IMG/VR virus record: IMGVR_UViG_3300046530_000359
Span: 1-31,233 of that record
DNA from: a virus
Length of the DNA stretch: 31,233 nt
Reading direction: 5' to 3' (one strand)
The position numbers and the translations under genes are program-made. Positions 1,617-6,221 of this stretch are shown here, in pieces; the first letter of the stretch is position 1; every line of letters begins with the position of its first letter. The notes beneath the pieces were generated by a model that did not search any database, was not told the origin of the DNA, and worked only from the letters and a program-made list of their open reading frames with translations.

Positions 1617-1802
1617 TCAGCCCTTGCAGAGAATTAGCGCTTGGTCTTCGCTGAAGCCCTCCTTCACTAGCGCGACATACTTCGCGCGCATCGTGTGCGC
1701 TAGCAGCTGGTTGAACTCAACGTGCGCTTTGATATTCTCGCGGTACCGCCGCACCATCTGCGCGAACTCGACCTGCTGCTTGTCCTGATCGCTGCCGATC
1801 AT
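1617..1802 (-). CDS. Small phage protein downstream of the helicase loader
   Basis: 61 residues, acidic/basic mixed and predicted helical (MIGSDQDKQQVEFAQMVRRY at the start). Its ATG overlaps the TGA of the loader gene (ATGA). No family recognised. Such short helical proteins are common between replication and Q genes of temperate phages. Confidence 0.6.
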   Translation of the reverse strand: MIGSDQDKQQVEFAQMVRRYRENIKAHVEFNQLLAHTMRAKYVALVKEGFSEDQALILCKG

Positions 1803-2623
1803 GCCAATACCTCCCGTCGTCCGCGATAAGATTCCCAGTCGAACACCACCACCTTGCCGCCGCCTTCGCGCAGGCGGTCGACCGCCCTGGCGCCCAGGTA
1901 CTTCTCCAGCTCGCCGATCGCCAGATTGCTGATGATGATCGTCGGCCGGCGCGACTCGTAGCGCCCGTTGATGATCTCGAACAGGATCAGCTTCTCGGCG
2001 TCGCTGCCGAATTGCACACCCACTTCGTCGAGGATCAGCAGGTCAGGCTCCACCAGGTCGCGCAGCGCTTGCGCCTCGGTCCGCTCGGCACCCTTGCTGT
2101 AGGTTTCCTTCACCGACCGCACGGCGCGAATCACCGACGAGAAGACAGCCTGGCCGCCTTGCTCCAGTACCACGTGCGCAATGCCGGCGGCGAGGTGTGT
2201 CTTGCCGGTACCGACGTCGCCGCAAAAGATCAAGCACACGCCCGACTTACGCACGGCACCGAAGTTGTCGGCGTATCGCTGCGCCACCTGCAGCGCATGC
2301 TGACTCTCGGGGCAAGTTGGTCGGTAGGTGTCGAGCCGGCGGTCTGAGAAGCGCTCAGGGATCGCCGCACGACCGAGACGAGCGTCCCATGCCCGCGCGT
2401 CCAGTTCGCGTCGCCACGCCTCGTTTGATGCATTTGCGGCGACCTTCTCGGCGTCCAGAGAGCACGACACGCAGGTCGACCAGCCGCTGGGCAGTTCCAT
2501 TGATGCATATTCGCCGTGCTGTTCGCAGTCGGTCAGCACTGCGCTGAAGTAGCGCGGGCGCCCCTCAGAACGAGCCATCGGCGCCAACCCCTGCGCGGTA
2601 ATCTTGCGTAGCGAAGCTGTCAT
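1799..2623 (-). CDS. DnaC-like helicase loader ATPase
   Basis: 274 residues. An N-terminal zinc-finger-like region (C33, H36, C51, C54) is followed by an AAA+ ATPase domain with Walker A GDVGTGKT (135-142), Walker B LLILDEVG (195-202), a sensor-1 Asn in ISNLA (231-235) and an arginine-rich ARAVDRLREGG segment (245-255). This is the DnaC/IstB family; in phages it delivers the host DnaB helicase to the origin, the task of lambda P. The ATG has AAGGACAGAAAC before it and lies inside the 3' end of the O-like gene (59-base overlap), so initiator and loader are linked. All ATPase residues look intact. Confidence 0.9.
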   Translation of the reverse strand: MTASLRKITAQGLAPMARSEGRPRYFSAVLTDCEQHGEYASMELPSGWSTCVSCSLDAEKVAANASNEAWRRELDARAWDARLGRAAIPERFSDRRLDTYRPTCPESQHALQVAQRYADNFGAVRKSGVCLIFCGDVGTGKTHLAAGIAHVVLEQGGQAVFSSVIRAVRSVKETYSKGAERTEAQALRDLVEPDLLILDEVGVQFGSDAEKLILFEIINGRYESRRPTIIISNLAIGELEKYLGARAVDRLREGGGKVVVFDWESYRGRREVLA

Positions 2624-3413
2624 GTTTCTGTCCTTTCTGCGGCGTACCGCGTTTCATCGTCAGTTGGTCCCACTTCTCGCGCAGCTTCGCCGGCGAGAGG
2701 ATGTTGGCGCGCCAGAAGTTGTCAGCCTGCGCCCACTGGAACAGCTCGCAAATCTCGGCATGCGTGCGCTTGTCGCGCTCCCGGAGCAAACGCACGTCGT
2801 CGGCCCAGCCATCGAAGTTCGGCGGCTTCGCCGAGTCGTTGTTCGCCAGCACGCGGCCGAACAGCCAGCGCGCGCACTTCTCGTCGTCGGCAGTTCCCCG
2901 GCGCTTTCCACGGCGCTCATCGCGCTCACCAGAGCCATCGTCCTCGCCACCCTCGGCCGGCTTTTTCTCGGACGAGGTTTTATGTTCTTTATCTTCTCTT
3001 CTCTTCTCTTCTCTAGTCCGCTTTTCTTCCGCATCATCTTCGGACAAATTGCGGACAGTTTGCGGACTTTTCCGGCCCTCGCGCTTGCGCTTTTGATCCT
3101 CCGCGCGACGCTTCCCCGACTTGCCGTTATGCTCGTCAAACTCAGGCAGAATCAGGGTTTCAGCCCCATCAACCTCCAGCCAGCCGACCGCAATTACAGC
3201 GTCGGCGAAGCCCGGCCAGCCGATGATGTGGTCGAGTGCTTCAGGCGTGTAGCCATCAAGCCGTCCATCGCTCGAATGCGTGTCGAACACGCTCCAGACA
3301 GCATGCAGTCCACCGATGACCCGAAACTTGTCCGATTTTGTTGCGGACAAAATGCGGACAATTTTCGGATGCGATTGGAGGTCCAGGCGCATCTTGATCC
3401 AATCACCTGCCAT
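2565..3413 (-). CDS. O-like phage replication initiation protein
   Basis: 282 residues starting MAGDWIKMRLDLQSHPKIVR. The N-terminal third resembles the winged-helix DNA-binding region of phage replication proteins. The middle (about residues 95-190) is a very charged Lys/Arg/Glu linker, and the C-terminal part (WLFGRVLANNDSAKPPNFDG onward) probably contacts the helicase loader. The start was chosen at 3413: its ATG overlaps the end of the upstream small HTH gene, and the longer in-frame extension is the shadow of that gene. The role as origin binder is inferred from its place directly upstream of the DnaC-like gene and from two groups of phased repeats inside the gene, as in lambda O. The charged linker is encoded partly by a TCTTC repeat. 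Confidence 0.75.
   Translation of the reverse strand: MAGDWIKMRLDLQSHPKIVRILSATKSDKFRVIGGLHAVWSVFDTHSSDGRLDGYTPEALDHIIGWPGFADAVIAVGWLEVDGAETLILPEFDEHNGKSGKRRAEDQKRKREGRKSPQTVRNLSEDDAEEKRTREEKRREDKEHKTSSEKKPAEGGEDDGSGERDERRGKRRGTADDEKCARWLFGRVLANNDSAKPPNFDGWADDVRLLRERDKRTHAEICELFQWAQADNFWRANILSPAKLREKWDQLTMKRGTPQKGQKHDSFATQDYRAGVGADGSF
2992..3014. repeat. Pentanucleotide tandem repeat (TCTTC x4 plus TCT)
   Basis: Four perfect TCTTC units and a partial fifth lie in the charged linker of the O-like gene, giving a purine-rich strand (GAAGA repeats) on the coding side. It adjoins the first group of iterons. The unit length is not a multiple of three, so a slip would shift the frame of the replication gene. 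Confidence 0.85.
3041..3067. repeat. Candidate origin iterons, group 1
   Basis: Three direct copies of CGGAC begin at 3041, 3052 and 3063, an exact 11-bp period. On the coding strand of the O-like gene they read AGTCCGCAAAC, TGTCCGCAATT and TGTCCGAAGAT. A period of 11 is not a codon multiple, so the protein sequence does not force it. The purine-rich TCTTC repeat and an AT-rich stretch (about 2978-2995) lie next to it, the same arrangement as the iterons and adenine-rich tract of lambda ori inside gene O. Confidence 0.6.
3330..3370. repeat. Candidate origin iterons, group 2
   Basis: CGGAC begins at 3344 and 3355 and CGGAT at 3366, again with 11-bp period, and an inverted copy (GTCCG) lies at 3330-3334. 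On the coding strand the units read CATCCGAAAAT, TGTCCGCATTT and TGTCCGCAACA, sharing the TGTCCGCA core with group 1 about 300 bp away. The group lies in the codons for the N-terminal domain of the O-like protein. Confidence 0.55.
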
Positions 3414-3594
3414 TGCACACCTCCCAAGTCGCCGCCGCGTAAGCGGTACGACCGGTGAGCGCATCGCGGACGGTGGAGACGCCGACTCCGAGGCGGCGCG
3501 CTAACGACTCGTAGCCGGCGCCACGCACACCAGGCTTGTACTGCGCGCGCAGCTCGCGCAACTGCTCGCTGGTTAAAGCATGTCGGCGCGTCAC
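3403..3594 (-). CDS. Small helix-turn-helix protein
   Basis: 63 residues with a Hin/resolvase-like HTH (YESLARRLGVGVSTVRDALT, about residues 28-47). It starts with GTG at 3594, overlapping the stop of the helicase-methyltransferase gene (GTGA), and its 3' end overlaps the O-like start by 11 bases. Probably a small DNA-binding regulator of the replication region; no target can be deduced. Confidence 0.65.
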   Translation of the reverse strand: MTRRHALTSEQLRELRAQYKPGVRGAGYESLARRLGVGVSTVRDALTGRTAYAAATWEVCNGR

Positions 3595-6221
3595 GATGCA
3601 TTCTCCTGGTCCAGTGCCACCAGGTCGAACAGCGTCGGCATGCTGACCTCGCGTTCGGCTTCTTGCAGGTAGTGCACCTGGTCGCGGAAATAGGTAGCGT
3701 TCAATTCTGAACCGGCGCCACGCCGACCCAGCTTCACGGCGCGCACGCCAACCGTGCCGAGGCCGTGAAATGGGTCATAGACCACCTCGCCCGGATTGGT
3801 GTAGCGGTTGATGAGGCGGTCAACGATGTCGATCTGGAACGGGCAGACATGGTTCTCCACTGCGCGCGCCGCCTGGGCGCCGTTCAAGGTCTTCATGCGC
3901 ACAATGTCGTGCCAGACCATCGGATCGCTACTGCCAGGCGCCAGGCTCATGTAGGTGGCCGGCAGCGCCTTGTTGGCCAGCATCTGCTCGCCAGTGTCCA
4001 CGTGGAGCTGATAGTCGTAGACGTTGGCCAGCGACAGCTCGGTGAACATCTTCGCCAACTTGGCCGGTCCGTAGCTGGCCAGCTCGGCGGCGCCCAGCAG
4101 CCGGTTGCCGCTGGAACGCCAGAACGCATGTGCATCGACCTGCCAGCGGGCGACGCTGTACCCGGTGCCGGGAATCGGCGGCAGCGCGCGATCGAAGTCT
4201 ACCGGCCGGCCATGATCGTCCAGGCAGCGTGGCTTGACCTTCGTCACCGGGGTGTCGGCGTAGCCGCGCGCGCGGTCTGTCTGCGGTTTGTGGAACAGCA
4301 GGATGTACTCTGGCGAGCCGACGCCCATCTTCGTGCCGTCCTTACACACTTCAGAATAGCCCAGGCGATAAGTCTGGTTGTTCTCCCGTACCACATCGGT
4401 TACTACCGTGATCATGCCCATGTAGTCGAAGCCATGCTTCAAGCCATGGAAGAGCGCCTCAGCATGGAATGGACTCACGGTCGGCACGCCGGCACCGGTG
4501 ACGTTTCCGAACAGGATCCGGTCCTTGACGTGGCAAGCGTAGATGCGGCCAGGCTGCAGGATGCGCAGCAGCTGCGGGGTGAGAAAATCCATCTGGCGCC
4601 AGAACTGCGCGTTATCCTGCGTGTGGCCGAAATCGTTGTAGCTCGGCGAATATTCATAATGGTTGGCGAACGGGATCGACGTCAAGATCATGCCAACGGA
4701 GTTTTCCGGCCGCTCCAGCGCCTCCAGCACGCAGTCGTTGTGCGCGACACTGAAGTGATCGCCGACGGCAACCTGGCGCTGCACGCCGATGGTCCGCGCC
4801 AGCGAGTCTTGCATCGACAACTGGTCCAGCCCGTAGGTGCGGATGATCTCGCCCATCTTGGCCTGCATCTCCTCGTGCTGCTGCCACTTCACCTGCAGGT
4901 CGGCCAGCACTTTGCGCTCGACTTCGGTGTGCACGATGTCGACGATGACCGGATGCGCCTGCTGGAAGCGCTGGACGCGGTGAATGGCCTGGATGAAGTC
5001 GTTGAACTTAAAGCCAATGCCGGCAAAAATCTCGCGGTGGCAGTGTACCTGGAAGTTGCAGCCCGAACCGGCGATGATCGGCTTCGTCGACAAGACGGGG
5101 AACTTGCCGTCGCTGAAGTCGGCGATGCGCTGCTCGCGCTCCTCCAGGTCCTGCGTGCCCCACACACTCACGGAGGCAGGGATCGCCGCTTGAATGGCGT
5201 GGCGCTCATCCTCTAGATCATGCCAGACCACGAAGTGATCTTCCGGCGCCGCCGCAATGATCTCTGCGACCTTGGCGACCCGCGCCGGCATGCTGTCCCG
5301 TTTCTCGCCGGCGGCGGCCGACAAGCCCATGGCCACGTTCGGGATCAACAGGCCCTGGCCATTCTTCTCGGCGCCGGCCCTATCGTAGTTACTCGGCACC
5401 TCGTGATACCGGACCTCGATCGGCGGCAGATCATAGCCCGCGTCCGAGTGTCCCAGGTCGCTAGGGCGCTGGATGAACACCGCCCAGCTGGCGACCCAGA
5501 GCCAGAATTCATGCTCCTTGTGTGGGTACAGGGTCAGGTTGCCGGCCTTCTCGCTGTCGCGCTGGAAGAAGCGGGTCAGCGCCTGGCCAGTATCCATGAC
5601 GCCCAGGTAGCCAGCGTAATGGATCAACTCCTTGAAGCGGTTGGGGCTCGGCGTGGCGGTGTATACGAACTTGAACTCGACCGACTCGAACATCGGCAGA
5701 AACTCCTGATAGGTCTTGCTGCCGTAGCTGCGCAGAACGCTGGCCTCGTCCAGGCCGGACGCCTGCCACTTCGTCACGTCGACCTTGGCCTCGCGGACCG
5801 ATTCGTAGTTCGTCATGTAGATCGTGGCCGGATCATCAATCTCCGCGTCCGAGCGGATAAAGCGCAGGTCGACCACCTGGTCGCCAGTAAAGCGCTTCGC
5901 CACCTCGCGCGAGAACTCTTGGCGCACGCCCAGCGGCGCCACGATGCCGCGCACGCCGCCCGGCCGGTGGATGCCGATCTGGCGCATCACTTCCAGGTTG
6001 GTGCTGGTCTTATGCAGGCCGAACGACGCGAAGATGGCGCGCTGGCCACCAGCGAGCGCCCAGCGCACAATGTCGCGCGTGTGTGGCTTGAGGCCTGGAT
6101 GGATCTGCTCCAGCGGCACGTCGAAGCCATTCTTCTGGGCCAACTTGATTTTCTCCAGCAGGAACTGGCCGTATTCGGCCTGCACCAGCAGCTTCTGTTC
6201 TTCAGGGTTAAATGCACTCAT
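3591..6221 (-). CDS. Helicase-like / DNA methyltransferase fusion protein
   Basis: 876 residues. Residues about 40-430 resemble an SF2 (SNF2/DEAD-like) helicase: a Walker A position reading ASFGLHKT (65-72), DEAS (158-161), TATPSPN (188-194), and an end motif QAIHRVQRFQQ (411-421). Residues about 485-876 form an amino-methyltransferase with motif IV reading TSIPF (514-518) and motif I DPFHGLGT (816-823) near the C-terminus. This permuted order is typical of N4-cytosine or N6-adenine enzymes with a C-terminal SAM site. Walker A has His where GxGKT has Gly, and motif IV is SIPF instead of (S/D)PP(Y/F), so both activities may be altered. The likely role is methylating phage DNA against host restriction. 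GGAGAAGCA precedes the ATG. Confidence 0.8.
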   Translation of the reverse strand: MSAFNPEEQKLLVQAEYGQFLLEKIKLAQKNGFDVPLEQIHPGLKPHTRDIVRWALAGGQRAIFASFGLHKTSTNLEVMRQIGIHRPGGVRGIVAPLGVRQEFSREVAKRFTGDQVVDLRFIRSDAEIDDPATIYMTNYESVREAKVDVTKWQASGLDEASVLRSYGSKTYQEFLPMFESVEFKFVYTATPSPNRFKELIHYAGYLGVMDTGQALTRFFQRDSEKAGNLTLYPHKEHEFWLWVASWAVFIQRPSDLGHSDAGYDLPPIEVRYHEVPSNYDRAGAEKNGQGLLIPNVAMGLSAAAGEKRDSMPARVAKVAEIIAAAPEDHFVVWHDLEDERHAIQAAIPASVSVWGTQDLEEREQRIADFSDGKFPVLSTKPIIAGSGCNFQVHCHREIFAGIGFKFNDFIQAIHRVQRFQQAHPVIVDIVHTEVERKVLADLQVKWQQHEEMQAKMGEIIRTYGLDQLSMQDSLARTIGVQRQVAVGDHFSVAHNDCVLEALERPENSVGMILTSIPFANHYEYSPSYNDFGHTQDNAQFWRQMDFLTPQLLRILQPGRIYACHVKDRILFGNVTGAGVPTVSPFHAEALFHGLKHGFDYMGMITVVTDVVRENNQTYRLGYSEVCKDGTKMGVGSPEYILLFHKPQTDRARGYADTPVTKVKPRCLDDHGRPVDFDRALPPIPGTGYSVARWQVDAHAFWRSSGNRLLGAAELASYGPAKLAKMFTELSLANVYDYQLHVDTGEQMLANKALPATYMSLAPGSSDPMVWHDIVRMKTLNGAQAARAVENHVCPFQIDIVDRLINRYTNPGEVVYDPFHGLGTVGVRAVKLGRRGAGSELNATYFRDQVHYLQEAEREVSMPTLFDLVALDQENAS

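Follow-up and report, generated by a model that had tools for sequence, protein, structure and literature searches.

Where does replication of this phage genome begin? The question is raised by an O-like replication initiator gene in the window, by which we mean the whole analysed stretch of 31,233 nucleotides (IMG/VR record IMGVR_UViG_3300046530_000359), since the initial annotation had proposed that repeats inside this gene form the origin. On the minus strand, the frame is open from 2565 to 3464, but the start codon most likely lies at 3413 (MAGDWIKM...) rather than at 3464, as judged from the conservation of this start in homologues, giving a gene at 2565-3413 that encodes 282 amino acids. 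The next gene downstream (1799-2623, minus strand) encodes a DnaC-like helicase loader, an IstB/DnaA-type ATPase matching PF01695 and phrog_50. Upstream on the same strand, a short ORF (3403-3594) that overlaps the initiator start resembles a small helix-turn-helix protein, and an 876-aa ORF (3591-6221) combines a match to a phage helicase-like profile (phrog_16) with an N6/N4 DNA methylase domain (PF01555).

The initiator contains 2 recognised domains. The N-domain (3069-3413, minus strand) matches 2 profiles of replication initiation proteins, phrog_2509 (E about 4e-57 to 1.8e-54) and phrog_9474 (E 4.7e-38), both of which are matched by all 105 of 105 aligned members. An AlphaFold2 model of this domain (m982dab053a56; 138 residues, mean pLDDT 80) predicts a winged-helix fold followed by a C-terminal basic helix. 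The C-terminal domain (2619-2915, minus strand; the phrog_391/2357 region) is O-like by its matches to phrog_391 (E 1e-40) and phrog_277 (E 5e-35), and is the probable partner-recruiting part. The protein has no match in NCBIfam, a plasmid collection yielded only 3 matches, all distant, and Phage_rep_org_N (PF09681) does not match the window protein and reaches E ≤0.1 in 13 of the 105 members, with 4e-4 as the best value. None of 404 Foldseek matches of the N-domain to solved structures had E ≤0.001, and the top VIA-align score (Z 5.8) falls among common winged helices.

All of the repeats named in the initial annotation are present, with CGGAC at 3041, 3052, 3063, 3344, and 3355 and CGGAT at 3366 on the plus strand, an inverted copy at 3330, and a spacing of exactly 11 bp. 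In the initiator gene, 5 pairs of exact 7-mers are spaced by 11 bp, compared with a mean of 0.1 and a maximum of 3 in 5,000 shuffles that held both the protein and the codon usage of the gene fixed. Because the repeats lie within coding sequence, they could in principle be a by-product of peptide repeats or codon usage, but this explanation was rejected by the codon shuffles; together with the fact that an 11-bp step does not fit a whole number of codons, they exclude it and leave it a negligible probability. By itself, the word TGTCCGCA shows no enrichment in the window (with up to 1 mismatch, 38 matches compared with 36.6 expected). The signal is the phased clusters and not the single word, and only 2 places in the whole window score as arrays.

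Group 1 also contains inverted copies on the coding strand that had been overlooked, AGCGGAC at 3016-3022 and TGCGGAA at 3027-3033, and with these both groups are dyad arrays. They follow a common plan, in which half-sites approach a dyad in 11-bp steps, the step across it is 12 bp, and 11-bp steps lead outward again on the opposite strand: (GTCCGCA N4)n [GTCCGCA]N5[TGCGGAC] (N4 TGCGGAC)n. Read in the sense of the minus strand, group 1 (3016-3067) runs from GTCCGCA at 3061-3067 and 3050-3056 and GTCCGAA at 3039-3045 to the 2 inverted half-sites; in gene coordinates, counted on the minus strand with 0 at 3413, these stand at 346, 357, 368, 380 (TGCGGAA), and 391 (AGCGGAC). Group 2 (3330-3370) begins with a degenerate ATCCGAA at 3364-3370 and continues with GTCCGCA at 3353-3359 and 3342-3348 (54 and 65 in the gene) and an inverted ATCGGAC at 3330-3336 (77). 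The codons of group 1 specify the linker of the protein, and those of group 2 specify helix 1 of the predicted winged-helix fold; we refer to the 2 groups as the linker array and the N-array. The proposal of a candidate origin is supported, with the correction that the repeats make up 2 distinct dyad arrays, some 300 bp from each other, rather than a single block of iterons.

The purine-rich pentanucleotide tract that had been seen beside group 1 is indeed there. This candidate unwinding element, AGAGAAGAGAAGAGAAGAGAAGA (2992-3014, minus strand), has a period of 5 and begins 1 bp beyond the last half-site, and local GC falls to 0.46 there from about 0.6-0.7 in the surroundings. Among 185 homologues that could be classified (see below), 166 have 15 or more consecutive purines after the linker array. 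The half-site closest to the tract in these 166 genes is inverted almost without exception; its distance from the tract is usually 1-2 bp, or 12 bp in some genes with the GTCCGCA half-site. Pooled over homologues, 7-mer pairs number 2,364 at spacing 5 and 1,434 at spacing 10, compared with 43 and 22 in codon shuffles. Of 232 arginines in the REEKR peptide encoded by the tract, 229 use AGA, compared with 60 of 950 in the N-domain, a bias indicating that the tract is selected as DNA.

The comparison was extended from about 150 loci in 2 first scans, through 4 further scans with divergent members, to 425 genes, of which 251 are nonredundant (Uetakevirus epsilon15, Pseudomonas, Burkholderiales, and others). 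An origin here would have been called into question had homologues lost the 11-bp period, but the period is kept across the family, with 669 direct exact 7-mer pairs at 11 bp in the 251 genes and 23.5 expected from codon shuffles. Inverted pairs at spacing 12 number 179 (18.9 in shuffles), and those at 14, 23, and 25 number 130, 125, and 93 (12-19 in shuffles). Near relatives, among them the Salmonella phages epsilon15 and SPN1S and the Pseudomonas phage phiPSA1, have GTCCGCA arrays in both positions. When diverged members were scanned with no motif given in advance, the same geometry emerged, built from other words, and we distinguish class I (GTCCGCA), class II (GTCACGC), and class III (GTAACGC); 36 of the 251 genes could be placed in none of these 3 tested classes, and the array counts refer to 185 classified genes. 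The N-array stands at 137/148/160 in GTCACGC genes and at 148/160, if there is one, in GTAACGC genes, and genes with both arrays use the same word in each. The idea that the array is a general genome motif was rejected, because there is no other array in the window and none scoring at least 10 in 706 kb of flanking DNA. Arrays are absent from 2 relatives (L057, L128) whose similarity is confined to the C-terminal domain.

Which protein binds these arrays? The basic helix after the wing has the pattern HNGxSAKRRAxxxxRKxxxR, and 3 positions on one face of it, 8, 12, and 16 counted from the H of HNG, change with the half-site. In the window these putative recognition residues lie in residues 100-115 (codons at 3069-3116, minus strand), which are modelled with moderate confidence (pLDDT about 66-77). 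Class I genes (107) have R8 in 105, D or E at 12 in 106, and K16 in all 107; among the 31 class II genes, position 12 is A or G in 29 and position 16 is Q or K in 30; and class III genes (47) have T12 in 45 and V16 in 44. The first half-site begins after helix position 16 in most genes, so that overlap does not trivially account for the correlation, although in a few (L238 and the class I genes L221 and L229 among them) the array begins inside the helix codons and site and helix are not fully independent. In the WDDPR subfamily of the winged-helix domain, 26 genes belong to class I and 34 to class III, and the 2 classes are interspersed on a tree built without the helix region. The best tree implies 11 half-site switches, and strongly supported branches force at least 4. 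In each of the 4 strongly supported pairs, half-site and helix change together, for which the sign test gives p 0.125, a test that cannot reach significance with only 4 independent pairs. The natural reading of these patterns is that the basic helix reads the half-site. Since the half-site covaries with the helix of the O-like protein, the arrays are likely bound by this protein itself, and such binding is well supported by the comparison of sequences.

Dyads are also typical of operators, and a different protein could be imagined at these sites, such as a repressor, the KilA-N protein of the window, or host DnaA, whose box TTATCCACA differs from TTGTCCGCA at only 2 positions. This is improbable, because the half-site changes with the initiator's own helix and tracks the N-domain, relatives do not conserve the DnaA-box consensus, and no arrays were found elsewhere in the flanks. 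The dyads might instead act in the mRNA as hairpins that control translation, and both window arrays can be folded as RNA with minimum energies near −26 and −25 kcal/mol. Hairpins would have no need of extra copies at exact 11-bp steps, some members (L015, for example) have mainly copies in the same orientation, and covariation with a protein helix is not expected of them; we regard this explanation as even more remote than that of a foreign binder.

Synonymous positions, whose comparison among related phages had been suggested as a check, give a clear result for the N-array. In 82 nonredundant genes of class I, to which all of these figures apply, its codons are almost invariant: Ser is TCC in 82 of 82 (16% background), Ala is GCA in 72 of 81 (21%) and at another site GCG in 64 of 64 (25%), Leu is TTG in 54 of 60 (11%), and Asp is GAC in 78 of 78 (59%). 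No such excess is seen in class I for the codons that lie between the sites (90-98). The N-array is a clear case of DNA-level selection acting on the codons of a folded domain. It occurs in 78 of the 81 canonical class I genes, in 19 of the 31 in class II, in 9 of the 13 class III genes outside the WDDPR subfamily, and in 0 of 60 WDDPR genes. Nearly all homologues have the linker array (162 of the 185 classified), and 57 of the 60 WDDPR genes keep a strong linker array although they have no N-array. This difference makes the linker array the probable origin core and the N-array an accessory element.

Two more specific accounts of the second array can be weighed with these data. In one, only the linker array is the origin, and the N-array is an autoregulatory roadblock, where bound initiator would repress both its own gene and that of the loader downstream. 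The near universality of the linker array, its persistence in WDDPR genes that have dispensed with the N-array, and the position of the N-array about 20 codons past the start all agree with this account, as does the lack of firm helical phasing between the arrays (for the distance from N-array to linker array, p is about 0.09 over distinct distances in class I and about 1 in class II). No promoter or terminator was found near the N-array, which weighs against a regulatory role, though the transcript may come from upstream; we give this account close to an even chance. In the other, both arrays form a single bipartite origin, with initiator complexes paired through a DNA loop for activation or handcuffing. 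The half-sites and dyad geometry common to the 2 arrays point this way, and so do the very strong synonymous constraint on the N-array and its regular presence in canonical class I (78 of 81 genes), but the N-array is dispensable in the WDDPR subfamily and the spacing shows little or no helical phasing, so that a bipartite origin appears rather unlikely. More broadly, the N-array is probably an accessory site for the same protein, which may serve autoregulation or pair with the linker array through a loop.

Comparison with homologues, through both the kept period and the covariation of half-site and helix, strongly supports the proposal of an origin inside the O-like gene. Judged from sequence, the region is very probably a lambda-type intragenic origin within the gene of its own initiator, working as follows. 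Initiator monomers would insert their basic helices into successive major grooves one turn apart and would thus lie on one face of the DNA, as was reasonably suggested earlier. A cooperative, one-sided O-some would assemble from the dyad outward and, by analogy with lambda and from general knowledge, melt the purine tract beside the last half-site. By the same analogy, the C-terminal domain, together with the DnaC-like loader from the next gene, would then recruit the host helicase; this C-terminal module differs between phages, being O-like in the window and DnaT-like in epsilon15. Lambda provides the model for both the opening of the tract and the handover to the loader (PMC7466680).

The likeness to lambda O and ori-lambda is considerable. 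In both, the sites lie in the middle of the initiator gene (348-432 of the O gene in lambda) and adjoin an AT-rich or purine tract (452-469 in lambda), the dyads have a 5-bp spacer (TCCCTC N5 GAGGGA in lambda), and the C-terminal domain of the window protein matches the O-like PHROGs 391 and 277. The phrog_277 match covers the window protein only from residue 113 on, so kinship of its N-domain with that of lambda is not seen by sequence. The arrangement of sites differs: lambda has 4 tandem 18-bp palindromic iterons every 20-24 bp, ending about 20 bp from the purine run, whereas the window has single half-sites in 11-bp steps from one dyad that end 1-2 bp from the tract. No second array was found in lambda O, in which the known block contains every iteron-like site within 6 mismatches.

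Further parallels exist in the initiators of epsilon15 and SPN1S, which have the N-domain, GTCCGCA arrays in N-domain and linker codons, and the purine tract; the epsilon15 protein differs from that of the window in its DnaT-like C-terminal part. No origin is annotated in the stretches of the epsilon15 and SPN1S records that were covered. One N-domain type is joined to DnaT-like, O-like, and other C-terminal modules, as seen when epsilon15 (L153) and L144 are set beside the window, and the initiators form a modular family.

Bacterial oriC, in which a DnaA box lies at a fixed short distance from the DnaA-trio, offers a parallel to the closeness of recognition site and short-period element. The window differs in having a period of 5 instead of 3 and a different initiator. 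The pentamer tract beside the last half-site raises the question of whether unwinding at short-period purine elements is a general principle that extends beyond DnaA.

Origins inside initiator genes are already known, from lambda and from RepA_N plasmids. In the available part of a study of RepA_N initiators such as pSK41 Rep, the Rep boxes are central in the rep gene, they are bound by a winged-helix N-domain, and the middle of the protein encoded by the ori is a linker (PMC5703833). The window resembles this in its central sites and the linker that they encode, with a predicted winged-helix N-domain as the likely binder; that part of the source reports no array in winged-helix codons, unlike what we find here. 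Weak fold matches of the N-domain include Rep-DNA (5kbj, Z 5.8) and the DnaD N-domain (2v79, Z 4.8), but the former is tied with unrelated CAP-type winged helices, so no kinship to RepA_N can be drawn from the fold.

What sets the present arrays apart from these known origins is the use of half-sites in 11-bp steps around one dyad, their fixed abutment to a period-5 tract, a helix code that switches, and a second array in winged-helix codons. Our search, which was confined to the open-access literature (subscription papers lay outside its scope), found no description of such arrays; for Pseudomonas phage MD8, one paper mentions repeats in the O-like gene without detail (PMC8508860). Within the parts of the phage records examined for this group, no origin is annotated. 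Our results provide a predicted origin for a large group of phages and a predicted recognition code in which helix positions 8, 12, and 16 correspond to GTCCGCA, GTCACGC, or GTAACGC, which could allow origins and their cross-compatibility to be predicted from sequence and offers natural specificity switches for study. More tentatively, and as a proposal we lean somewhat against in its full form, this could be a widespread origin type of its own design, with a three-residue helix code of a winged-helix initiator, 7-bp half-sites laid out from a dyad outward at intervals of one helical turn, sequence-specific melting of a period-5 tract, and the winged-helix codon array as a control, so that gene, origin, and regulator make up one self-specified module.

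Several subfamilies vary the arrangement. In L132, L135, L302, L304, and L316 the commonest 6-mer is GTAGAC/GTCTAC, and in all of these but L304 the helix resembles AKERGLKNARQARWR; this group is likely a further half-site class. Others (L145, L146, L148, L151, and many of L357-L436) have VTRNVTRNVT-type peptides inside the N-domain, within the first ~220 nt of the initiator gene, that are encoded by GTTACGCGTAAC-type repeats in steps of about 12 bp, with similar peptides in the linker. This subfamily apparently realises the same array idea as an insertion. A small insertion in the winged-helix codons of L014, L016, L020, and L025 (gene positions ~60-100) adds a direct half-site at 76, so that L014 and L016 have GTCCGCA at 54, 65, and 76, and the array thus seems able to reshape the protein.
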